Assembly (NCBI GenBank): GCA_002084825.1
Contig: NBMF01000006.1
Location: forward strand, 1 to 55,357
Direction: 5' to 3'
From: Fusobacteriia bacterium 4572_74
GTDB taxonomy: Bacteria > Fusobacteriota > Fusobacteriia > Fusobacteriales > Fusobacteriaceae
DNA: 55,357 nucleotides
In this document: positions 16,943 through 43,304 of the stretch, piece by piece
How the letters are laid out: each line of letters opens with the position of its first letter
How positions within the stretch are numbered: the first letter of the stretch is position 1
The notes under the pieces: model-generated
Databases searched by the model: none
Seen by the model: only the letters and a program-made list of their open reading frames with translations
Told to the model about the DNA's origin: nothing
Made by a program: the position numbers and the translations under genes

Positions 16943-17965
16943 TTATTTTTCACAGTAAAAACATACTTTTTTTCCTTTAAAATCTATCCATTTCCCTCCT
17001 AAATTTTCTACTTTTGATATACATTTAGGATTTTTACAAATTTTATCTATCCCGTCATATGCAGGTTTAATATGATTTTTTATGAGTAAACTCATGATAG
17101 CCTGTCTGACAAAAACACCATTTTTAGCCTGGGAAAAATAAATTGCATTAGGAGTGGAATCTAAATTTGTATGGATCTCTCCTACCCTAGGCAGAGGATG
17201 AAGAATTTTTAAATCAGGTTTAGATATTTTTAATATTTCTTTATCTATTTGATATTTCCCAGCACATTTTTTAAAATCTTCGGGGTCATCAAATCTTTCC
17301 TCTTGTATCCTGGTCATATATATAATGTCTACATCTTTCATAATAGCTTCATAATCTTCTAAAACTTCATATTTTAAAGAGAGAGAGTCTAAAATATATG
17401 ATGGAATCTGCATCTCAGGAGGGGCTATAAAATAAATTTTATTTCCACTAAATTTATCTAATGCCTTAGCCAATGAATGAACAGTTCTTCCATATTTGAG
17501 ATCTCCTACAAATGCGACCTTTAAATTATCTAGTCTCCCTTTTTCTTTCTGTATAGTATAGAGATCTAGTAAAGTCTGGGTAGGGTGTTGGTTAGCTCCA
17601 TCCCCTGCATTTATTACAGGAATATTTAAAATTTCACTAGCTCTTTTGGCTGTTCCCTCATAGGGACTTCTGATTGCCATGATATCAGTATAGAGGCCCA
17701 TCATAGTGAGGGTATCAGATATTGTTTCCCCTTTTTTTAGGGAGTTATTCCCTCCTCCATCTAATTCTATTACCTTCCCTCCTAATCTATACATAGCACT
17801 TATAAAAGATAACTTAGTTCGGGTAGATGGTTCGAAAAATACAGTAGATAAAATTTTATTTTTTAATTCATAAGGTTTAGGATTTTTTTCCAATTCTTTT
17901 GCTTTATCTAAGATATTTAAGATATCTTTTACCGTTAAATTATTTAATGATAGTATTTCTTTCAC
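16943..17965 (-). CDS. pyrB: Aspartate carbamoyltransferase with C-terminal PyrI-like zinc-binding domain
   Basis: FFEPSTRTKLSF, HPTQTLLDLYTI, HPLPRV; C-terminal CKNPKC...CFYCEK. Confidence 0.93.
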   Translation of the reverse strand: MKEILSLNNLTVKDILNILDKAKELEKNPKPYELKNKILSTVFFEPSTRTKLSFISAMYRLGGKVIELDGGGNNSLKKGETISDTLTMMGLYTDIMAIRSPYEGTAKRASEILNIPVINAGDGANQHPTQTLLDLYTIQKEKGRLDNLKVAFVGDLKYGRTVHSLAKALDKFSGNKIYFIAPPEMQIPSYILDSLSLKYEVLEDYEAIMKDVDIIYMTRIQEERFDDPEDFKKCAGKYQIDKEILKISKPDLKILHPLPRVGEIHTNLDSTPNAIYFSQAKNGVFVRQAIMSLLIKNHIKPAYDGIDKICKNPKCISKVENLGGKWIDFKGKKVCFYCEK

Positions 17966-17982
17966 TTATTTACCTCCTATAA

Positions 17983-18100
17983 CCCCCTCCGGTTCTGACG
18001 AACACCCTCTCCCTCTAAAGGAGAGGGAATTTTCACTTAAAATTTCTACTATAGGTTTCCACCTGTGAGGGGAAACACTAAAAAAGGAAGAGGGTAAGGA
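17983..18100. repeat. Candidate palindromic intergenic element (MITE/REP-like)
   Basis: Locally GC-rich stretch with CCCTCTCC...GGAGAGGG and GTTTCC...GGAAAC inverted repeats and related ends. Confidence 0.4.
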
Positions 18101-18104
18101 GTGG

Positions 18105-21100
18105 CTAAATCTTGCTGATATCAAAGATATCTAAGTCTCTAGTATTTACATCTTTTTCCATGATATTTAATACTGCATTTAGTGTATCTAATGAAGTTAA
18201 TACTTCTACACCATATTCTATAGCTGTTCTTCTTATCTTAAATCCGTCTCTTTGAGCATCATTTGCTTTTGTAGGAGTATTGATGAGTAGATCTATTTGC
18301 TGAGTTTTTAGTCTATCGATTATATTAGGAGATGCTTCGTTGATCTTATTGACAATTTCACATGGAACACCATTATTATTTAGATATTCAGCAGTTCCGC
18401 CAGTACCAATCATTGTACATCCTTGATTTATAAGTCTTTTAGCTAGGCTTAAGAATTCATCTTTATCGCTTCCTTTAATAGTAGCTAAAACTCTCTTATT
18501 TTTAATCTCATGTATTCTGTACCCTCCTACAAGTCCCTTGTAGATAGCTTCGTCCATATTATTTCCTATTCCCAGGACTTCCCCCGTGGATTTCATTTCA
18601 GGACCCAATGATACTTCTACACCACCAAGTTTTTCTGTAGAGAATACTGGTACTTTTACTGCTACTATATTTGGTTTCTTGTATATCCCCACACCATATG
18701 GCAAATTAGATAATTTTTGTCCCATCATTACTTTTGTTGCTAGTTCGATCATTGGAACTCCAGCTACCTTGGAGATATAAGGAACGGTTCTAGATGATCT
18801 TGGATTTACTTCTATGATATATAATTCATTTTCATAGGCTATAAATTGTATATTCATCATTCCTATTATATTTAATTCTTTAGCTAACTTTTTAGTGATC
18901 TCTAATATCTCTTCTTCCGTTCCTTCATATAAATTTTGTTGTGGATAAACTGTGATTGAATCACCAGAATGTATTCCCGCTCTCTCAAGATGCTCCATGA
19001 TCCCAGGAATAAGAACATTTTCACCGTCACAGATTGCATCTATTTCGATTTCTACACCATTCAAATATTTATCTACCAATACTGGATTTTTAGGGTCTCT
19101 AATGAAAGAAGCTTCTAAATATCCTTTTAAGTTTTCTTCTAAATAGCAGATCTCCATCCCCTGTCCTCCTAATACATATGAAGGTCTTACTAATACGGGA
19201 TATTTTACTTTTTCAGCCTCTGCTACACCATCTTCAGTATTCCAAACAGCTCTTCCCTTCGGTCTTTTTATATCTAATTTTTCTAGAATAGCTTCAAATC
19301 TTTCTCTGTCTTCAGCAGCATCTATCATGTCGGCAGAAGTACCGATGATATTAATTCCTAAGTCTGCTAAATCATTGGCTAATTTTATAGCAGTCTGCCC
19401 GCCGAATTGCAGGATAACTCCCTCTGGGTTTTCTTTTTCAATAATATTCATTACGTCTTCTAGCACTAATGGTTCAAAGTATAATTTATCAGCAGTTGAG
19501 AAATCTGTGGACACAGTCTCAGGGTTGTTGTTTATGATAATAGTCTCTATATCTAAACTTTGCAGTGCTTTTACTGTATGTACTGTACAGTAGTCAAATT
19601 CAATTCCTTGTCCGATTCTAATAGGCCCAGATCCAATTACTATAACTTTTCTTCTGCCTGATATTTCAACTTCATCATATAGGTCATAGGTTGAGTAGTA
19701 GTAAGATGAAGAAGCTTCAAATTCTCCAGCACAGGTATCGACCATCTTATATACAGGTATAATGTTTAATTCTTTTCTTTTAGCAATTATATCATCTTCG
19801 TTTAAGCTCATAAATTCTGCCATAGCCCTATCTGAAAATCCTTTTTTCTTCCAATTTCTAAGGTTTTTAGGAGTAAGGTCAGATAATTTTGTTTTCTTTA
19901 AAATTTCCTCCTGTCTTACTATCCATTGGAGTTTTTCCATGAAGAATGGATCCATTCCAGTAATTTTTTGTAACATAGTCTTAGTATATCCACGTCTTAA
20001 CATTTCAGCTAAATCAAATATTCGTTCATCATCCGGGCTTACTACTCTCTTTTTTAGTTCCTTCATAGACCTTATTTTAGATGCTTTATGCTCCAAGCTG
20101 TATTGTCCTATTTCCAGTGATCTAATACCTTTTAAAAATGCAGCCTCAAAGTTATTCCCAATAGCCATAATCTCCCCAGTAGCCATCATTTTGGTACCTA
20201 ATTTTCTATCAGCTTTTTCAAACTTATCAAATGACCATTTTGGAATTTTTACTACTATATAGTCCAGTGCCGGTTCAAAACAAGCATATGTTTTTCCTGT
20301 TACCTCATTTTTAACTTCATCCAAAGTGTACCCCAACGATAATTTTGCTGCAACTCTTGCAATTGGATAACCAGTAGCTTTAGAAGCTAGTGCTGATGAT
20401 CTAGATACTCTAGGATTAATTTCTATAATTGCATATTCAAATGAATTAGGATTGAGAGCAAACTGTACATTACACCCTCCTACAATTCCAATTTCATCTA
20501 TGATATTAAGTGCAGATGTTCTCAACATTTGGTATTCTTTATCAGATAATGTTTGAGATGGTGCTACTACGATACTATCTCCCGTATGGATTCCAACTGG
20601 ATCAATATTTTCCATATTACAGACCGTAATTCTATTACCATTAATATCTCTCATTACTTCATATTCTACTTCTTTCCATCCAAGGATCGATTTTTCAACT
20701 AATACTTGTCCTACACGAGATAATACCAATCCCTTCAATAAGATATCTTCCAACTCTTGAGGGTTAGCTGCCATTCCTCCTCCAGTACCACCCAGTGTAT
20801 ATGCAGGTCTTACAATCAACGGGTATCCTATTTTTGCAGCGAATTCTAATCCATTTTCCAGGTTCTCAACTATCATACTCTCTATAGTGGGTTCCCCTAT
20901 CTTATTCATTGCATCTCTAAATAGGTCCCTGTCCTCTCCCCTTTTTATAGAATCAATAGTTGTTCCTAATACCTTGATATTTTGTTCAGTTAATATTCCA
21001 CTATCATCTAATTCTACTGCCATGTTAAGAGCAGTTTGTCCACCCATCCCCACCAAAATTGAATCAGGTTTTTCTTTCATAATTACCTTAGTTACAAACT

Positions 21101-21311
21101 CCAATGTGATGGGTTCAATATATATTCTATCAGCTACACTTTTATCAGTCATTATCGTTGCAGGGTTAGAGTTTATTAATACTACTTCTATTCCCTCTTC
21201 CTTCAATGCCTCACAAGCTTGAGTTCCAGAATAATCAAATTCAGCAGCCTGTCCTATTACAATTGGTCCCGATCCTATTACAAGGGTTTTCTTTATATTT
21301 TTATCTAACAT
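18105..21311 (-). CDS. carB: Carbamoyl-phosphate synthase large subunit
   Basis: 1068 aa, duplicated ATP-grasp: [23 protein letters not shown] and [21 protein letters not shown]. Confidence 0.97.
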
Positions 21312-21425
21312 TCTATTACCTCACTTTAAAAAAATTTACCAAAGAGATGACTCTTCTTTTTTATGGTTTCCCTTGGTTAAAGAAACCAACGAAGAATATT
21401 AAATTATCGTTTCCCGATTCACGAG

Positions 21426-22487
21426 TTATCCCAGCATATCAATGAAATCATCAAATATATACTGTGAATCTTCCGGTCCTGGTGCTGCTTCTGGATGGTA
21501 TTGTACCGATGCTATTTTATTCTTATAATCTTTCATTCCCTCTACTGAATTATCGTTTAAGTTTATTTGAGTTATCTCTACACCTTCTGGCATTTTGTCT
21601 ACTACATACCCATGATTTTGAGATGTTATAAATATCTTATTTTTTTCTAAATCTTTTACTGGATGATTAACTCCTCTATGACCAAACTTTAATTTGCTAG
21701 TTGATCCTCCTAATGCCCAGGCTAACAGTTGATGACCTAGACATATTCCAATTATAGGAATATTTCCAACCATTTTTTTTATCTCATCTATTACACCTGT
21801 TAAATCAGCGGGATCTCCAGGCCCATTGGATAAGAAGACACCATCTAGATCATAGGATAAGATCTCCTCAGCAGTTGTATTCCATGGAAATATAGTTAAG
21901 TCACAATTTCTCTTATGAAATGATCTGATAATATTTTGTTTTATTCCAAAATCAATCATTCCAATTTTTTTATTAACTTTTTCTGCACCACATGGAGCTT
22001 CGTAGATTTCCTTTGTACTTACTATGCTCACTGCATCTATATTTGAAAAATCATTCATTGTATTTTTTATTTCTTTTTGTGTGAGCTCATCTATGGTTAT
22101 GATAGCTTTCATAGATCCGCTATCTCTGATAACCTTAGTTAGATGTCTTGTATCAATTCCTTTAAATCCCATGATTTTATATTGTTTTAAATAACCATCC
22201 AGGGTCATCTCACATCTGAAATTACTCGGTAGTTTAGCAGGTTCTTTTATTACAAATCCTCTTACCTTAGCACCATTACTTTCTAAATCATCTAGGTTAA
22301 GCCCGTAGTTTCCTACCATTGGGTAAGTCATTATAACTATTTGTCCATAATAAGATGGATCAGTAAGGACTTCTTGATATCCCGTCATAGATGTATTAAA
22401 TACTAATTCTCCTACAGCTTCCTCTGTATATCCAAAAGCTTTTCCCTCGAATATCATTCCATTTTCTAATATCAATTTTGCCTTCAT
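21426..22487 (-). CDS. carA: Carbamoyl-phosphate synthase small subunit
   Basis: FLSNGPGDP, GICLGHQLLAWALGG, SVQYHPEAAPGP. Confidence 0.97.
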   Translation of the reverse strand: MKAKLILENGMIFEGKAFGYTEEAVGELVFNTSMTGYQEVLTDPSYYGQIVIMTYPMVGNYGLNLDDLESNGAKVRGFVIKEPAKLPSNFRCEMTLDGYLKQYKIMGFKGIDTRHLTKVIRDSGSMKAIITIDELTQKEIKNTMNDFSNIDAVSIVSTKEIYEAPCGAEKVNKKIGMIDFGIKQNIIRSFHKRNCDLTIFPWNTTAEEILSYDLDGVFLSNGPGDPADLTGVIDEIKKMVGNIPIIGICLGHQLLAWALGGSTSKLKFGHRGVNHPVKDLEKNKIFITSQNHGYVVDKMPEGVEITQINLNDNSVEGMKDYKNKIASVQYHPEAAPGPEDSQYIFDDFIDMLG

Positions 22488-22518: not shown

Positions 22519-22561
22519 AAAAAAAAAGAATAATAACTAAAATAGATTAGTCATTATTCTT
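22519..22561 (-). terminator. Attenuator-type terminator between leader ORF and carA
   Basis: AAGAATAATGACTAA-TCTATT-TTAGTTATTATTCTT plus T-run; 15-bp stem with one G-T pair. Confidence 0.85.
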
Positions 22562-22705
22562 CATAATAAAGTTATTATTAAAATTTAAAAAAAAAGATAT
22601 CACTCCATATGTTATATAGGGAACATCTTTCAAAAATAGAGATTTGTTAAATTGAAACAGATCATTAAATTTAATTGGTATTATTAGTAATCTATTATTT
22701 TTCAA
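22547..22705 (-). CDS. carAB-pyrB leader peptide, 52 aa, TTG start
   Basis: AGGAGG 8 nt before TTG; MKNNRLLIIPIKFNDLFQFNKSLFLKDVPYITYGVISFFLNFNNNFIMKNND; stop inside terminator left arm. Confidence 0.75.
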   Translation of the reverse strand: MKNNRLLIIPIKFNDLFQFNKSLFLKDVPYITYGVISFFLNFNNNFIMKNND

Positions 22706-22735
22706 ATTTAACACCTCCTAAAAATTTCTTATGTA

Positions 22736-22764
22736 AGAATACCAAAAATAACTAGATGTGTCAA
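22736..22764 (-). promoter_or_regulatory. Promoter of car leader transcript
   Basis: TTGACA - 17 nt - TATTCT on minus strand. Confidence 0.7.
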
Positions 22765-22797
22765 TATTTATTTTTGAATTTATCACAATATTAGTGT

Positions 22798-22815
22798 AGG
22801 CTTATATATAAGCCT
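22798..22815. repeat. 18-nt perfect palindrome between divergent genes
   Basis: AGGCTTATATATAAGCCT. Confidence 0.6.
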
Positions 22816-22849
22816 GTAACATAAATAAAAAAGGGAAGGGGGAGAAAGT

Positions 22850-23833
22850 ATGAAGAAAATATGTGTTTTATTGTCTATAATTTTAATTTCAGCTTGCAGT
22901 TTTTCAGAGTCAAAAAATATTTTTGGTAAATTTGCAATTGGAGAAAATATAGTTGTAAATGATAGGGATGAAGGAGATTTAGTTGTCGCAGGCAGAGAAG
23001 TACTTATAGATAGAAATTTTTCTAAGCGTGTAATTATTGCTGGTGAAGAAATTACAATTAAAAGCAGATCAAAAGAACTCTACCTGGCAGGGAAAAATGT
23101 CATAGTAGATGGGATGGTAGAAGAAAATTTAAATATAATAGCTAAAAATTTATATATAAATGCTCCTGTAGGTGGAGATGTTAGGATGGTTGTTCAAAAC
23201 GCCGTTCTCTCAGAGGGGGTAGTTATAAGTGGTGATATTGAAGTAGATGGGAATTTGCTAGTATCGAAGGGTGCAGCTGTTAAAGGAAATATTTATTATA
23301 AGGATAAATTGCCTGTAATAGAAGGACGTGTAATAGGAAAACTTATAAAAAAAACAGATAAGAATTATTTCTATGAAAGGCATTTTACTTTCCTCCCGTT
23401 TAAATTATTTTCAGTATTTTATTTATTTATACTCACCTATATAATTTTCAAACTAAAAAAGGAGTTAGGAAAAGAAAGACTTGGCAGATATTTAAACAAT
23501 AAAAGTTTGATTTTATTTAATGGGTTTGTAGCTTTAATCCTCACACCAGTAGCCGTATTATTATTATTTATTACAATTTTAGGATTTCCTGTAGGAATCT
23601 TATTGATTTTATTATATTTAATATTAATGTTCTTGGCTATTCCTATAGCAAATCTAATAATAACTGCTAAATATTTTGATAAAATAAATTTTCTCAAGCT
23701 TCTATTATCTAGTTTTATTATAACAATTTTAATGAGTTTACCCTATGTAGGTTGGTTGATAAAATTATTTTTAATCTTACTTGGATTAGGAAGTATAATA
23801 GATAGTTTTAAAAATAGAACGAAATTATTATAA
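22850..23833 (+). CDS. Bactofilin-like/polymer-forming lipoprotein-signal membrane protein
   Basis: Signal with lipobox ISAC, repetitive beta-helix-like (GDLVVAGREV..., LYLAGKNVIVDG), then C-terminal TM helices. Confidence 0.65.
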   Translation: MKKICVLLSIILISACSFSESKNIFGKFAIGENIVVNDRDEGDLVVAGREVLIDRNFSKRVIIAGEEITIKSRSKELYLAGKNVIVDGMVEENLNIIAKNLYINAPVGGDVRMVVQNAVLSEGVVISGDIEVDGNLLVSKGAAVKGNIYYKDKLPVIEGRVIGKLIKKTDKNYFYERHFTFLPFKLFSVFYLFILTYIIFKLKKELGKERLGRYLNNKSLILFNGFVALILTPVAVLLLFITILGFPVGILLILLYLILMFLAIPIANLIITAKYFDKINFLKLLLSSFIITILMSLPYVGWLIKLFLILLGLGSIIDSFKNRTKLL

Positions 23834-24054
23834 TCTTCTAAATAATAAAAAAGGTACCTTAAGTATTTTATACTGTAATCTGTGAACTATACACTAGAAA
23901 AAAAACGTCAAAATCTACAGGTTTTTTGTATATTTAAAAATAAAAATGTTTAAAAAATTTCATCCAAATCTATTGTTTATATTTTTTAATTTAAAGAAAA
24001 ATTTGTAAATTATTATAATAACTATAGATACCAGTAGATATCTATTAAGATTAA

Positions 24055-24095
24055 AAAAAGATGATTCCTGTAGAATACAGAAATCATCTTATATA
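24055..24095 (-). terminator. Intrinsic terminator
   Basis: AAGATGATTTCTG...CAGGAATCATCTT then T-run on minus strand. Confidence 0.75.
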
Positions 24096-24157
24096 TATTG
24101 TTCTATTTTTTTTTAATCTAAAAGTATTAGTGACTATAAATAAATATAGTATTATTA

Positions 24158-24820
24158 CTAACTCTTTACCGGTAATTTATAGCCATTTTTTTCTAATATT
24201 CTACCCATAGTAATACCACTTAAGATAACAAGTGGGATAGAGGCTATGATACGAATAAGACTAAATTTCCAACCAAGAAATGTTGATTCAAATAGAATCA
24301 TAGGAATACGACCAATTCCGACAGCACCCAAAAATGTAAGAATAACTGTCAAACGAGCACCTTTTTGATAAAGAGAATAAGCAATAGGAAACGCAGGTAG
24401 AAGACCTCCAGCCATAGGACCTGCTAAAATAAATACCCAGATAAAACTTTTAGCACCACCATCTTTACCAAGATGTTTTACTATTGTTTCTTTTTTTACC
24501 CAAACATCAAAAAAACCAATCAAAATGAAATCATAAGAGATGAAGAGAATGCTGCAATAACACTGTATGATACACCTTTTTCTACAAGAATCCCACAAAG
24601 AGGGTAAACTATAGGCCCAGGCATAACAGTAACAGCACCAATTATTAAAGCAATTGCAACACCGAAATAAGAATCTGAACCACCAAGATAATCTACAATC
24701 AGATTGTGTGGTATAAAATACAATACCATAGAAACAGATATTAGAATAGAAACAAATGTAGGTGCAATTTTCCATAATTTTTTTATCCTTAAACTTAAAA
24801 TAATTATTGCTTAAAATATA
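24158..24820 (-). pseudogene. Frameshifted permease (predicted permease, COG0701-like)
   Basis: N-half in frame of ORF 24520..24729 (VMPGPIVYPLCGILVEKG), C-half in ORF 24158..24775 (GFFDVWVKKETI...); one T missing near 24530 restores frame; no in-frame start seen. Confidence 0.7.
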
Positions 24821-24944
24821 AGATTAAACAACAACCTAATTATTATATTTACATATATTAATTTACTTATATAATACATAATTATTCAATTAAAATCAAA
24901 TAATATTGAATAAGAGTGTCATATAGTGTGTCCTGCAACCTTAA

Positions 24945-25105
24945 ATATAAGTGGTGTTGTAATTTGAAAACTCTATATTTGTAGTTACAATTAGGTGTTT
25001 CCTTTCATAATAATCTGCTATTACTTGAAAAAAGTTCCTTGCCACATTCTCCTAAAAGAACATAGCTCAATTCATCAACAAAGATTACAGTATACTCTTC
25101 TCTTT
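24945..25105 (-). mobile_element. IS21-family istB (AAA ATPase helper) remnant
   Basis: Frameshift-corrected translation EEYTVIFVDELSYVLLGECGKELFFQVIADYYERKHLIVTTNIEFSNYNTTYI resembles IstB Walker B region. Confidence 0.7.
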
Positions 25106-25211
25106 TTTAATTAATCTCTATTAGATTCAAAAATCAAATTAAATTTTTAATTAAGTTCAAAAGATAGATATAACTTTTAACGGTATTATTAGTCATAATG
25201 TTTACAACTCC

Positions 25212-25604
25212 TTAATTTTTTCCACAGCATTTTTTATATTTTTTACCTGATCCACATGGACACGGGTCATTTCTACCGATTTTAACGTCTTTTTTTATTG
25301 TCTTTTGTGTAGAAAGTGATGAATCATACATCCATGCTCCATCTATCTTTTTAAATAATGATCTTTCATGATGAAATAATGTTTTTCCATCTTCTGAATA
25401 GTAGCCTTTAAATTCTACAATACCTTTAGAATCATCGGCTTCTCCACCTACAATTTCAATTATCTCTAACTTATTCCAGTCTGTAGATTCAGACCAGTGT
25501 TTGATCTCTTCTTTACTAAGAGTCCCACGTGTTTTAGGATTATGTGTATTATAGACATAATCTACCTCTCCTACAACATAGGCTGTATATCTAGATCTCA
25601 TCAT
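25212..25604 (-). CDS. YchJ-family SEC-C motif protein, N-terminally truncated
   Basis: [11 protein letters not shown] and C-terminal [17 protein letters not shown]; upstream in-frame [18 protein letters not shown] preceded by TAG. Confidence 0.8.
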
Positions 25605-25789
25605 ATCTTCAGCAGTGGTTGGTATTTTTTCACCTAATATATATGGCTTACAACATTTGGGGTAAATATCCTAAGAGTTACTCATATTTAAACAGGGGAA
25701 TACAAATATTAAAAAAATAAAAATTTAATTAGAAAAATAATAAAAATAAGGTATACTAGAAAGAAGACAAAAATTTTAGGGAGGGTAAA

Positions 25790-26167
25790 ATGACTAAAAA
25801 ATTAGATATTTATAAATGTGAAATATGTGGTAATATTGTGGAGATGTTGCATACAGGAGCTGGAACATTAAGCTGTTGTGGAAAAGAGATGGTTTTACAA
25901 GCCGAAAATACAAAAGATGCCGCTATAGAAAAACATATACCAAAAGTTGTTAAATTAAGTGATGGCTATGAGGTCCAAGTGGGATCGACTCTTCACCCTA
26001 TGACAGAAGATCATTATATTGAATGGATAGAATTAATAGTGGATGGCTGTGTATCTACTAAATTTTTAAAACCAGGAGATATACCAAAAGTTGATTTCAA
26101 AGCATGTTATGGAGAAAAGGCAGAGGCTAGAGCTTATTGTAACCTTCATGGGCATTGGAAAAAATAA
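25790..26167 (+). CDS. dfx: Desulfoferrodoxin (superoxide reductase)
   Basis: YKCEICGNIVEMLHTGAGTLSCCGKEM; ARAYCNLHGHWK. Confidence 0.93.
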   Translation: MTKKLDIYKCEICGNIVEMLHTGAGTLSCCGKEMVLQAENTKDAAIEKHIPKVVKLSDGYEVQVGSTLHPMTEDHYIEWIELIVDGCVSTKFLKPGDIPKVDFKACYGEKAEARAYCNLHGHWKK

Positions 26168-26173
26168 AAATCA

Positions 26174-26202
26174 TTGACAATCCTTTATTAATATGGTATT
26201 TT
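26174..26202 (+). promoter_or_regulatory. Promoter of pyrK leader transcript
   Basis: TTGACA - 17 nt - TATTTT. Confidence 0.55.
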
Positions 26203-26234
26203 TTTTAAAAGATAAAAAAATGAGGGGGGATAAG

Positions 26235-26378
26235 ATGAAATTTTTAACGACAAACAATGATTTTATAAATTTCATGGATAAATTTCTTATTTTTTTAACT
26301 GATGTTCCTTATATTATATTTGGAGCAGTCAATTCAATTTTTAATTTTTATATTTATAATAGTGGGAATAAAAACTAA
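26235..26378 (+). CDS. pyrKDFCE leader peptide, 47 aa
   Basis: GAGGGGGG RBS, ATG; MKFLTTNNDFINFMDKFLIFLTDVPYIIFGAVNSIFNFYIYNSGNKN; stop inside terminator left arm. Confidence 0.78.
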   Translation: MKFLTTNNDFINFMDKFLIFLTDVPYIIFGAVNSIFNFYIYNSGNKN

Positions 26379-26405
26379 TATTTTAGTTTTTATTCCTTTT
26401 TTTTT
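26365..26405 (+). terminator. Attenuator-type terminator between leader ORF and pyrK
   Basis: GGAATAAAAACTAA-TATT-TTAGTTTTTATTCC then T9; perfect 14-bp stem. Confidence 0.9.
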
Positions 26406-26437: not shown

Positions 26438-27241
26438 ATGTTTTTAGAGGATGTTAAGATCATAGAGAATATACAAATAGCAGATAACTATTATTTGATG
26501 AGGGTAGAAGGAGATAAAATGTCTCAACATTCTAAGCCAGGGCAATTTTTCATGCTCCAGTGTAAAGATCGTTCAAGAGTTTTAAGGAGACCAATAAGTT
26601 TACACAATGTAGATGGCAATATTTTAGAATTTTACTATGAGTCTCTGGGAAAAGGAACTAAAGAATTTACTAAACTATCTATAGGTGAAACTATAAATAT
26701 TCAAGGACCTTTGGGGAATGGCTATGATACAGATCTTGAGGGGAAAAATATAATAGTAATTGGAGGAGGAATGGGGATGGCTCCTATTAAATATCTCATT
26801 AAAAATTTAAAAGATAACAATGATATTACTTTTATAGGTGGAGGGAAAAATGTTGGAGCTGTAAAAATAATGGAGAAATTTGATTTTGAAAATATTAAAC
26901 TAAAGGTAACAACTGATGATGGCAGTGTAGGGATAAAAGGAAATACTGTGGATATATTAAAAGAAATACTAAAAAGTCAGAATAAAAAAATAGATATAAT
27001 TTATACTTGTGGTCCTCATCCTATGATGATGGCAGTAGCAAAAATAGCACAAGAAAATAATATAAGATGCCAAGTATCTTTAGAAGAGAGGATGGCATGC
27101 GGAATAAAAGCCTGTGTAGGATGTTCAATATTAACTAAAAAAGGAATGAAAAAAGTCTGTTATGATGGGCCTGTATTTGAGAGTACAGATATAGTAGATG
27201 TAGATATGGTAGATCCAAATGGAGGATGTAATAATGAGTAA
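26438..27241 (+). CDS. pyrK: Dihydroorotate dehydrogenase electron transfer subunit
   Basis: RVLRRPISLHN, GPLGNGYD, C-terminal Cys cluster CGIKACVGCSI...C. Confidence 0.93.
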   Translation: MFLEDVKIIENIQIADNYYLMRVEGDKMSQHSKPGQFFMLQCKDRSRVLRRPISLHNVDGNILEFYYESLGKGTKEFTKLSIGETINIQGPLGNGYDTDLEGKNIIVIGGGMGMAPIKYLIKNLKDNNDITFIGGGKNVGAVKIMEKFDFENIKLKVTTDDGSVGIKGNTVDILKEILKSQNKKIDIIYTCGPHPMMMAVAKIAQENNIRCQVSLEERMACGIKACVGCSILTKKGMKKVCYDGPVFESTDIVDVDMVDPNGGCNNE

Positions 27242-28202
27242 TAGATTAAATATAATTTTTTTAGGAAAAAAATTAAATAATCCTATAATGACAGCATCAG
27301 GATGTTTTGGATATGGGTTGGAATATAAAGATTATTTTAATCCAAATGAATTAGGAGCTGCTGTATTAAAAGGAATAACTATGGAACCTAGAAATGGAAA
27401 TGCCGGTACTAGGATTGTAGAAACACCATCTGGAATGTTAAATTCAGTTGGATTGGAAAACCCAGGTATTGAAGAATTTAAAAAAATAATACCATCTATA
27501 AAAAAAGAACTTAATATTCCATTGGTAGCAAATATAAATGGTAAGATCTTGGAGGAATATATAGAGATAGCCAGAGAGGTTGAACAGTTGGTGGAGATAG
27601 AGATGGTAGAATTAAATATATCCTGCCCCAACGTCAAAGATGGGGGGATGGCTTTTGGAGCTAATCCAGAGATGGCAAGGTTAGTAACCCGTGAAGTAAG
27701 AAAAGTTTTAACTAAACCTATGATTGTAAAACTATCACCAAATGTCACTAATATAGTGGAAATTGCAAAAATAGTAGAGGAAGAAGGAGCAAATGGTATA
27801 GCCCTTATCAATACTTTATTAGGAATGGCAATAGACATAAGAAATAGAAAACCAATTTTGGGGAATATAATGGGAGGGTTGTCTGGGCCTGCTGTAAAAC
27901 CAGTTGCATTAAGAATGATATATCAAGTATCCCAAGCAGTATCCATCCCAATCCTTGGAATGGGAGGTATATCTTCTACAGAGGATGCGATAGAATTTAT
28001 TATGGTAGGAGCCAGTGCTATATCTTTAGGAACAGGGATGTTTAGTAACCCTAGATTACCAATAGAGATAAAAAAGGGATTGAAAAAATATTGTATAGAA
28101 AATAATATAGACAATATCAGTGATATTGTAGGAGCAGCCCATCCTGATGGAGGAATAGCTTATAGAAATAGACTAGGAGGTAATTATGAAATTAAAAGCT
28201 AA
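27234..28202 (+). CDS. pyrD: Dihydroorotate dehydrogenase, catalytic subunit
   Basis: NPIMTASGCFGYG, ELNISCPNVKDGG, GMGGISSTEDAIEFIMVGA; start set after GGAGG. Confidence 0.95.
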   Translation: MSNRLNIIFLGKKLNNPIMTASGCFGYGLEYKDYFNPNELGAAVLKGITMEPRNGNAGTRIVETPSGMLNSVGLENPGIEEFKKIIPSIKKELNIPLVANINGKILEEYIEIAREVEQLVEIEMVELNISCPNVKDGGMAFGANPEMARLVTREVRKVLTKPMIVKLSPNVTNIVEIAKIVEEEGANGIALINTLLGMAIDIRNRKPILGNIMGGLSGPAVKPVALRMIYQVSQAVSIPILGMGGISSTEDAIEFIMVGASAISLGTGMFSNPRLPIEIKKGLKKYCIENNIDNISDIVGAAHPDGGIAYRNRLGGNYEIKS

Positions 28203-28905
28203 AGACAGATTGATCGTAGCATTAGATTATAAAACATTAGACGAGGTAAAAGATATCGTAAATGAAATTGGAGATGCTATATCTACATATAAGGTAGGAT
28301 TAGAGTTGTTTTTAAATACTCATGGGAAAGCGGTAGATTATTTACATAATTTAGATAAAAAAGTATTTTTAGATCTAAAATTTCATGATATTCCAAATAC
28401 AACGACTATGGCATCAATATTTGCAAATAAACAAGAAGTTTTTATGTTTAATGTCCATGCAGGTGGAGGGCCGACTATGATGAAGTCCGTTGCAAATATG
28501 CTGAAGGAAAGTAATTCTGACTCAATAGCAATAGCAGTTACTGTACTAACGTCGTTTACTGAGGAAGAGGTGGCTGCACATTTTAGGAGTAATTTTAATA
28601 TCAGTGAGTTAGCTAATCATTGGGCAATAGAAACTAAGGAATCAGGGTTACATGGAGTAGTATGCTCTCCATTAGAAGCCAAGAAAATAAAGGAACTTTG
28701 TGGAGAAAACTTCTACACAATCTGTCCAGGAGTTAGACCGTTATGGGCAGTTTCTAATGACCAAAAAAGAATTCTGACTCCTAAGATGGCTATTGAAAAT
28801 GGGGCTGATTTCTTAGTAGTAGGAAGGCCAATAACTAAATCAGAAAATCCAGTCTATGCAGCTAAATTAATACTAGATGAAATACAGGAAGGATTAAATA
28901 ATTAA
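28186..28905 (+). CDS. pyrF: Orotidine-5'-phosphate decarboxylase
   Basis: LDLKFHDIPNT, VVGRPITKSENP. Confidence 0.96.
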   Translation: MKLKAKDRLIVALDYKTLDEVKDIVNEIGDAISTYKVGLELFLNTHGKAVDYLHNLDKKVFLDLKFHDIPNTTTMASIFANKQEVFMFNVHAGGGPTMMKSVANMLKESNSDSIAIAVTVLTSFTEEEVAAHFRSNFNISELANHWAIETKESGLHGVVCSPLEAKKIKELCGENFYTICPGVRPLWAVSNDQKRILTPKMAIENGADFLVVGRPITKSENPVYAAKLILDEIQEGLNN

Positions 28906-28981
28906 TAGTTAAAAAGGTTAATAAAATTTTGATTTGAAAGTTGAATCCAAAAAAGATCAGAGGAATGAGGAGGAATTAAAT

Positions 28982-30235
28982 TTGTTAATAAAAAATGCCA
29001 GAATAAATACTATAGATAATAAATATGAGATAAAAGATATCTATATAAAAGATGGTAAAATAGCTGAAATTGGCTTTGATATCAATAGTTTAAATATAAT
29101 TAAAAAGACATTTTTGACCTCAGATAAAAATATAAAAAAATTAGAAATTATAGATTTGAAGGGAAAAAAATATCTTATCCCAGGAGTTATCGATCCTCAT
29201 GTACATATGAGAGATCCAGGGCTGATTCATAAAGAAGATCTATATACTGGATCTCGAGCATGTGCTAAAGGTGGAATCACTACTTTTATAGATATGCCAA
29301 ATACAATACCTACCACTACAGATTTAAATGCACTCCAAGATAAAAAAAATTTAGCTTCAATTAAATCACTTGTAAACTATGGATTTCATTTTGGTGGAAC
29401 CAATACAGACAACAGTGATATTATACCCAGTAAGGGGGTGGCTTCTACTAAGGTCTTTATGAATATATCCACAGGAAAGATGTTAGTAGAAAAAGATGAA
29501 GTTTTAAAAAATATATTTTTAAAATCAAAGATGGTTTCAGTTCACGCTGAAGGTGAAATTGTAGAAAAAGCTATTGTCTATAATGAAAAATATGGAAAAA
29601 ATCTATACATTTGTCATATTTCAAGTAAAAAAGAGTTAAATATTATTAGAAAGAGTAGAAAAAAAAATCTTAAAAAAATCTATACTGAAGTAACTCCTCA
29701 TCATCTTTTTCTTACTGAAAATGATATAAAAGGTAAAAATAAAATGTTATTAAGAATGAAACCAGAGTTAAAAACAATCCACGATGTAGAAGCTTTATGG
29801 AAAGCAATAAATGATGGAATTATTGATACTATTGGTAGTGATCATGCACCTCATCTACTTTCAGAGAAATTAGAAAAGGTAACGTTTGGAATTCCAGGAG
29901 TAGAAAATTCATTACCATTGATGTTAAATGCGGTATCTAAAGGGAAAATAACTTTATCTAAATTGATAGAATTGATGTCTAAAAATCCAAGTAAAATATT
30001 TGGAATAAAAGATAGAGGAGAAATTAAAGAAGGTTACTATGGAGATCTTGTAGTAGTTGATCTAGAAAAAAAGTTTACTTTAGAAAATAAAACTACACTG
30101 TCAAAATGTGGTTGGACTCCATTTGATGGTTATATAGGATACGGTAAGATTGAAACTACAATAGTTAATGGTAATATAGTATATAATAAAGATCAAATAA
30201 TTGAGAATATAGGGAGTGAGATTGAATATGAATAA
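28982..30235 (+). CDS. pyrC: Dihydroorotase
   Basis: PGVIDPHVHMRDPG, DMPNT, GSDHAPH; TTG start 8 nt after GAGGAGG. Confidence 0.93.
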   Translation: MLIKNARINTIDNKYEIKDIYIKDGKIAEIGFDINSLNIIKKTFLTSDKNIKKLEIIDLKGKKYLIPGVIDPHVHMRDPGLIHKEDLYTGSRACAKGGITTFIDMPNTIPTTTDLNALQDKKNLASIKSLVNYGFHFGGTNTDNSDIIPSKGVASTKVFMNISTGKMLVEKDEVLKNIFLKSKMVSVHAEGEIVEKAIVYNEKYGKNLYICHISSKKELNIIRKSRKKNLKKIYTEVTPHHLFLTENDIKGKNKMLLRMKPELKTIHDVEALWKAINDGIIDTIGSDHAPHLLSEKLEKVTFGIPGVENSLPLMLNAVSKGKITLSKLIELMSKNPSKIFGIKDRGEIKEGYYGDLVVVDLEKKFTLENKTTLSKCGWTPFDGYIGYGKIETTIVNGNIVYNKDQIIENIGSEIEYE

Positions 30236-30851
30236 CGCTAAAAAAGTAGCCAGAGCACTATTAAAAGTAGAAGCTGTAATATTAAACGTAGCAGATCCAT
30301 TTACATTTGTATCAGGAATAAAATCTCCTATATATTGTGACAATAGAAAAGTTATTGGATTTCCAAAAGAAAGAACAGATATAGTAGATGCTTTTATAGA
30401 AGCTTTAAAAGATAAAGAATTTGATATCTTAGCAGGAACTGCAACAGCAGGAATTCCATGGGCAGCATTTATTGCAGAAAAGATGAATAAACCAATGGCT
30501 TATATCAGATTTAAACCTAAAGAACATGGTGCAGGAAAGCAAATAGAAGGAGCAAATGTAGAAGGGAAAAAAATAATCGTAATTGAAGATCTTATCTCTA
30601 CTGGGGGGAGTTGCATCTCAGCACTTGAAGCAGTAAGGAGAGAAGGGGCTAAAGATGTAGAAGTTATGGCTATATTCTCATATGAATTTAAAAAAGCATA
30701 TGATAGATTTGAAGAAGCTAACTGTAAATGGGAAACACTTTCTGGATTTCCGGATTTAATAGAATTAGCAGTTGAAGAAAATTATTTATCACCTGAGGAT
30801 GCAGAGGAAGCTAGTGAATGGAATAAATCTCCAAATACTTGGAAAAAATAA
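30228..30851 (+). CDS. pyrE: Orotate phosphoribosyltransferase
   Basis: IIVIEDLISTGGS PRPP motif. Confidence 0.95.
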   Translation: MNNAKKVARALLKVEAVILNVADPFTFVSGIKSPIYCDNRKVIGFPKERTDIVDAFIEALKDKEFDILAGTATAGIPWAAFIAEKMNKPMAYIRFKPKEHGAGKQIEGANVEGKKIIVIEDLISTGGSCISALEAVRREGAKDVEVMAIFSYEFKKAYDRFEEANCKWETLSGFPDLIELAVEENYLSPEDAEEASEWNKSPNTWKK

Positions 30852-43070: not shown

Positions 43071-43111
43071 TAAAATTTAGGATATTTATTCCAATTTTTT
43101 AAATAACTTCT

Positions 43112-43209
43112 ATCATCCAGACTTTACTGTCGGTATCAGAATTTCACTGATTCAGCCTAGGCTTGCGGACTCTTACCGCCGGTAGGGAATCAAACCCTGC
43201 CCCGAAGTT
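43112..43209 (-). promoter_or_regulatory. FMN riboswitch (RFN element)
   Basis: Minus strand: CTTCGGGGCAGGGTTTGATTCCCTACCGGCGGTAAGAGTCCGCAAGCC...GACAGTAAAGTCTGGATGA, matching RFN consensus blocks. Confidence 0.95.
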
Positions 43210-43304
43210 TTATACAATTTATTATTATTATAAACTATATCAATTTATTCTGTCAACATTATTTATTATAGTAAGTCATAGTTTCTAGTAGGTCTCTACC
43301 AATA

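Follow-up and report, generated by a model that had tools for sequence, protein, structure and literature searches.

Why should two short leader peptides, encoded on opposite strands ahead of two divergent pyrimidine operons, carry the same DVPYI motif? The question is raised by contig NBMF01000006.1 of the 1.37-Mb incomplete genome of Fusobacteriia bacterium 4572_74, analyzed here over 55,357 nucleotides (the window), in which carA-carB-pyrB and pyrK-pyrD-pyrF-pyrC-pyrE each follow a small open reading frame (ORF) that ends within an intrinsic terminator. The window was compared with seven further genomes of the same genus (n = 8), giving a leader set of 16 sequences, one carA leader and one pyrK leader per genome. 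In our judgment both leaders are likely to be attenuators of the pyrBI type that sense uridine triphosphate (UTP), with a motif that stems from duplication and from a selected RNA hairpin, the peptide letters mainly following the hairpin. The shared motif would go back to a leader that was duplicated as the operon split and whose hairpin selection has since preserved. For the most part, DVPYI is then probably a coding shadow cast by a putative pause hairpin, and its amino acids a by-product. The leaders and the operons behind them are laid out as follows.

22736..22764, minus strand: candidate promoter of the carA leader, TTGACA-17-TATTCT with an extended -10 TG, by consensus match only
22547..22705, minus strand: carA leader peptide ORF, 52 amino acids, TTG start after AGGAGG, stop codon within the 5' arm of the terminator, in 8 of 8 genomes
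22519..22562, minus strand: carA attenuator, intrinsic terminator AAGAATAATGACTAA-TCTA-TTTTAGTTATTATTCTT plus a T-run, from sequence and folding
16943..22487, minus strand: regulated operon carA-carB-pyrB, from ORFs, CarA and PyrB by Pfam domains and CarB by sequence
26174..26202, plus strand: candidate promoter of the pyrK leader, TTGACA-17-TATTTT with an extended -10 TG, by consensus match only
26235..26378, plus strand: pyrK leader peptide ORF, 47 amino acids, ATG start at 26235, in 8 of 8 genomes
26364..26405, plus strand: pyrK attenuator, intrinsic terminator GGGAATAAAAACTAATATTTTAGTTTTTATTCC plus T9, from sequence and folding
26438..30851, plus strand: regulated operon pyrK-pyrD-pyrF-pyrC-pyrE, from ORFs and Pfam domains

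Both ORFs lie where an earlier note on this DNA had drawn them (22705-22547 on the minus strand and 26235-26378 on the plus strand), as do the DVPYI codons (22627-22613, minus, and 26301-26315, plus). The TTG start of the carA leader, at 22705 on the minus strand, follows AGGAGG by 7 nucleotides (nt) and is retained in all eight genomes, while a GTG at 22714 falls within the Shine-Dalgarno sequence itself. The peptides read (M)KNNRLLIIPIKFNDLFQFNKSLFLKDVPYITYGVISFFLNFNNNFIMKNND for carA and MKFLTTNNDFINFMDKFLIFLTDVPYIIFGAVNSIFNFYIYNSGNKN for pyrK, and neither matched a known protein family in NCBIfam or Pfam. A translated leader ORF with a ribosome-binding site precedes both pyr operons in every genome of the genus, and in 16 of 16 leaders the stop codon (TAA in the two of the window) is found 12 nt into the 5' arm of the terminator. 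Upstream, TTGACA and a similar -10 box are also present before the carA leader in other genomes of the genus, and the TTGACA before the pyrK leader is likewise kept.

The relatedness of the two peptides, proposed from the window alone, was borne out by their local alignment (score 64, equalled by 4 of 20,000 shuffles), and it extends to the nucleotides. Over 66 ungapped nt, carA and pyrK leaders are 62 to 77% identical; the mean identity is 0.65, compared with 0.50 to 0.54 for unrelated U-rich leaders aligned at the terminator, and a single one of 750 between-genus leader comparisons reached the carA/pyrK level. In the closest-looking pair, which was the one tested, the pyrK leader of genome G005 and the carA leader of genome G001 agree at 50 of 66 nt, a value to be set against 20,000 codon shuffles that never exceeded 41. 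Judged by sequence, the carA and pyrK leaders are clearly homologous. In Ilyobacter (L092), carA-carB-pyrB-pyrK-pyrD-pyrF-pyrC make up one operon with a single leader in front of it, while in the genus studied the pyr unit is split into two divergent operons. Since Ilyobacter keeps this arrangement, the simplest reading, and the one we infer, is that the leader probably gained a copy as an ancestral carA-carB-pyrB-pyrK-... operon split; the case would then document a leader duplication alongside an operon split.

At the RNA level, the motif codons coincide in both leaders with a predicted hairpin, followed by a U-rich spacer.

22593..22630, minus strand: putative pause hairpin of the carA leader, predicted, AAAGAUGUUCC-c-UAU-auaac-AUA-u-GGAGn-nnn-AUCUUU, codons (K)DVPYITYGxxS
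22562..22592, minus strand: U-rich spacer of the carA leader from hairpin to terminator, 31 nt, 58% U, the presumed UTP-dependent pause zone
26300..26331, plus strand: putative pause hairpin of the pyrK leader, predicted, UGAUGUUCC-uu-AUA..-..-GGAGC-a-GUCA, codons (T)DVPYIIFGAV
26332..26363, plus strand: U-rich spacer of the pyrK leader from hairpin to terminator, 32 nt, 59% U, the presumed UTP-dependent pause zone

Local folding predicted this hairpin from the motif codons in 16 of 16 leaders, with a common core of GAUGUUCC...GGAnC and flanking pairs. Across the genus, the 3' strand in carA leaders is written AUA-u-GGAGC-nnn-AUCUUU after AAAGAUGUUCC-c-UAU, and the pyrK form is UGAUGUUCC..UAU...AUA..GGAGC-a-GUCA. 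For the genome of the window, folding energies were -11.4 kcal/mol in the carA leader (z of -3.4 and -3.7 against dinucleotide shuffles) and -9.4 kcal/mol in the pyrK leader (z of about -2.7). When 40-nt windows were slid along the leaders, an energy valley appeared exactly at the motif (mean of -7.9 kcal/mol), with about -1 to -2 kcal/mol on either side until the terminator was reached. The end of the hairpin stands 30 to 36 nt ahead of the terminator in all 16 leaders, and the spacer in between holds 50 to 61% U, compared with 36 to 46% in the N-terminal part of the leader. A hairpin at this place is also found in sequences with other peptides. Three carA leaders of the genus labeled g14 (L041, L042, and L181, from three genomes) contain a perfect 12-bp hairpin, UUGAGAUAUUUA-UAG-UGAAUAUUUCAA, within an unrelated peptide; it lies 32 to 33 nt ahead of the carA terminator, matching the DVPYI hairpin in position. 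The same calculation on pyrL of Escherichia coli K-12 gave a hairpin of -11.6 kcal/mol in the codons for LPRLKKDAG, then 35 nt including the U-tract, and then the terminator. In genus averages, the zone about 26 to 76 nt before the carA terminator was more stable than shuffles in most genera, a property shared neither by the zone farther upstream nor by most pyrB leaders. These findings in pyrL, in g14, and in the genus averages favor an RNA element at a fixed spacing over a peptide motif.

Silent sites within the motif are constrained. The codon differences between the two leaders (CCC/CCT and ATA/ATT) had been taken in the earlier note as a sign that the peptide or its spacing may be selected, but in the wider comparison such differences proved to be few. 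All 16 leaders use GTT for V and GGA for G, and 14 of them use CCC for the motif proline, although this codon accounts for just 6.9% of the window's proline codons. GAT GTT CCY TAT ... GGA is fixed in both leaders, and with the V, G, and P codons nearly fixed, conservation extends from the residues to the nucleotides. Eight of ten codons for D, V, P, Y, and G are invariant over the eight genomes (P = 1.4e-4, given the rates of the carA and pyrK genes), and the deepest lineage, G001, shares its codon with the majority of the rest at 10 of 10 motif sites (P = 0.003), values that, like the other selection tests, are uncorrected for relatedness and for the choice of a conserved stretch; at fourfold sites of the carA and pyrK genes, G001 and the rest differ by about 50%. 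When the same peptides were recoded with synonymous codons, the hairpins were also less stable than the native ones (mean of -6.5 versus -8.7 kcal/mol, 0.002 of recoded sets, ignoring relatedness). In the carA stem of G001, an A-U pair of the seven other carA leaders has become G-C by way of K to E and L/F to S replacements. The third C of CCC is unpaired in most predicted hairpins, so its conservation is only partly accounted for.

From what was computed (conservation, leader homology, silent-site constraint, hairpin prediction, and fixed position) we propose a mechanism in which the pausing, its dependence on UTP, and the part played by the ribosome are inferred. A ribosome would translate the short leader as RNA polymerase (RNAP) crosses the U-rich stretch ahead of the intrinsic terminator. 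At low UTP, the hairpin and the U-rich spacer would make RNAP pause, and the leading ribosome could then catch up, melt the hairpin, and occupy the 5' arm of the terminator at the stop codon, so that the terminator would be blocked and the operon read through. At high UTP, RNAP would get away first, the terminator would form, and transcription would end. Of the three origins that the earlier note had considered for the motif (a nascent-chain pause or sensor, a conserved RNAP-pause RNA element, and duplication), the last two are jointly favored, by the homology of the leaders and by a hairpin at the geometry of E. coli pyrL.

The nearest known parallel is E. coli pyrL/pyrBI, for which UTP-dependent pausing and ribosome-blocked termination are supported (PMC10135430, PMC5021804, PMC4824070). 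There too the leader ORF overlaps an intrinsic terminator, a leader-coded hairpin is followed by a U-rich spacer (35 nt, against 31 to 32 nt here), and aspartate transcarbamylase is regulated. However, no similarity of peptide or nucleotides was noticed, without formal comparison, the E. coli leader extends past the terminator whereas the fusobacterial ones stop 12 nt into the 5' arm, and the fusobacterial genus has two copies of the device, for carA-carB-pyrB and pyrK-D-F-C-E. In one fusobacterial genus, attenuation of the pyrBI type would thereby take in the two halves of the pyrimidine pathway, and what looks like a conserved motif in a leader peptide can turn out to be the coding shadow of a hairpin set at a constant distance from the terminator. 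The hairpin-stabilized pauses of hisL, trpL, leuL, and thrL1 resemble the mechanism proposed here, with a hairpin encoded in the leader immediately preceding a pause by which RNAP is synchronized with the ribosome. Unlike them, the fusobacterial leaders have no regulatory run of codons for one amino acid and no antiterminator common to both leaders, and their control would presumably be exerted by the UTP supply in the U-rich spacer.

Several observations weigh against a selected pause hairpin. Many Fusobacterium-type leaders have no hairpin beyond chance, and in most pyrB leaders it is likewise absent or weak; a hairpin in every fusobacterial pyr leader was therefore rejected, and the element is not essential to the general switch. 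Leader by leader, the recoding test is modest (P of 0.04 to 0.5), because the VP...G codons yield CC...GG under any codon choice. Covariation among carA leaders amounts to one compensated pair, equalled by 74 of 500 shuffles, and no compensated pair was found in the pyrK leaders or across both leader sets combined. Pairing does not require every motif letter: it could do without FL, without the final base of CCC, and, in the carA leader of G001, without Y. Finally, the E. coli pyrL pause studied in 2022 was unresponsive to NusA and to compensatory stem mutants (PMC9291695), so the pausing role of the hairpin in the present leaders is a prediction. The classical pause lies about 24 nt downstream of the one studied there, and the pausing role of the E. 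coli hairpin is disputed. A like layout of hairpin, spacer, and terminator without obvious sequence kinship makes this disputed role (PMC9291695) testable by comparison.

The alternative that survives best places the function in the peptide: a FLxDVPY nascent chain in the ribosome tunnel, by arrest or slowing, would tune the coupling or sense a pyrimidine-related signal. Some constraint at the peptide level is indeed visible, with dN/dS-like (nonsynonymous to synonymous) ratios of about 0.3 to 0.7 outside the hairpin (0.28 to 0.74 in the N-terminal part of the leader) and of 0.14 to 0.27 in the motif, with F and L upstream of the stem retained through TTA/TTG/CTA changes, and with a constant distance to the stop codon. 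Short leader ORFs with conserved residues are also what the arrest leaders TnaC, SecM, ErmCL, and SpeFL have. However, the residues of the fusobacterial motif are conserved in one genus only, the same switch occurs across Fusobacteriaceae with unrelated peptides, and silent sites are conserved too, so the pattern of a nascent-chain element (residues kept across lineages, codons free) is not that of the DVPYI leaders. The motif stands 24 to 25 codons before the stop, and a ribosome arrested at DVPYI, about 24 codons upstream, would be too far away to cover and block the terminator. We consider such a peptide function unlikely; the nascent-chain sensor raised in the earlier note is neither needed nor directly supported. 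There is perhaps a small chance that FLxDVPY is selected as a peptide as well, a nascent chain slowing the ribosome over the pause hairpin and so setting the distance at which it follows RNAP, with hairpin and peptide selected together.

How narrowly the motif is confined was seen in the other Fusobacteriota. FL[TKE]DVPY[IV]xxG is present in 16 of 16 leaders of the genus; the check that had been suggested, for DVPYI in further Fusobacteriota leaders, found it in both leaders of all eight genomes and in none of 90 others. A search with a profile of the leaders gave exactly two matches per genome of the genus and nothing credible in those 90 genomes, where the best match (E = 0.0018) contained internal stops, and a match in G085 with two copies was rejected as a chance match in unrelated sequence. 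Nor did any other fusobacterial carA or pyrB leader that was examined contain the motif. A switch of the same type, whose leader ORF ends within a terminator, precedes carA and pyrB in other genera, but with unrelated peptides, and the two leaders within one of their genomes neither resemble each other nor share a peptide motif. Leader-peptide attenuators precede carA in most Fusobacteriaceae genomes examined, and also pyrB where it forms a separate operon (e.g., L040-L057, L181-L207, and L211-L230). Their usual layout is a Shine-Dalgarno sequence, a short ORF rich first in K/R and then in F, a U-rich stretch, and a terminator at the stop codon, with peptides that vary between genera. As the earlier note had said, no prior description is known: the open-access literature consulted yielded none of fusobacterial pyr leaders.

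A plain relic of the duplication, in which the leaders have simply not yet diverged at the motif and neither hairpin nor peptide is under selection, would agree with the clear homology of the leaders and with the weak covariation. It is nonetheless improbable, given that the leader N-terminal halves have largely diverged, and the fourfold sites of carA and pyrK have reached the divergence of G001 given above, yet the motif codons have stayed fixed, with zero nonsynonymous change in DVPY over 16 sequences. The motif might also be one arm of an antiterminator, GUUCCC-UAUUAUA of the pyrK leader pairing with UAUAAUAGUGGGAAU at the base of the 5' arm of the terminator. With the RNA folded as far as the stop codon, RNAfold preferred this pairing in six of eight pyrK leaders (-14.0 kcal/mol in five and -11.9 kcal/mol in G005), and it would employ the rare third C of CCC. 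It does not form, however, in G001, in the window's own pyrK leader (with CCT), or in any carA leader, and the region is covered by the translating ribosome; being limited to most pyrK leaders, the pairing cannot explain a shared motif, and we hold an antiterminator of this kind to be very unlikely. A +1 frameshift at CCC-U was considered as well and rejected, as the +1 frame passes the terminator in pyrK (an ORF of 38 amino acids) but stops at once in most carA leaders and so is no shared device. Lastly, PyrR attenuators also regulate pyr operons, and those of Bacillus likewise have an intrinsic terminator ahead of pyr genes, but a protein-binding attenuator with the hairpin as its PyrR site is scarcely credible here: the leader is translated and stops within the terminator, an Rfam scan of the region at E up to 5 detected neither a pyrimidine element nor a PyrR element, and no other Rfam element was found in the leaders.

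Some neighboring features of the window are recorded here. The C-terminal stretch of PyrB (16943-17965, minus strand) resembles the zinc-binding domain of PyrI (PF02748), just under the cut-off; the nucleotide-binding part of PyrI is not obvious in it, and many fusobacterial relatives have a PyrB with a cysteine-rich tail of a similar kind. A permease-like gene in the interval that separates the two pyr operons (24158-24775, minus strand) is broken across two frames (24520-24729, and 24158 onward), either as a frameshifted pseudogene or through an error of assembly. The ORF at 22850-23833 (plus strand), which diverges from the carA leader, encodes a protein with a lipoprotein-like N terminus, C-terminal membrane segments, and a weak match to bactofilin (PF04519) below the cut-off. 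Farther along, a flavin mononucleotide (FMN) riboswitch was identified at 43101-43213 on the minus strand (Rfam RF00050, 108.8 bits).

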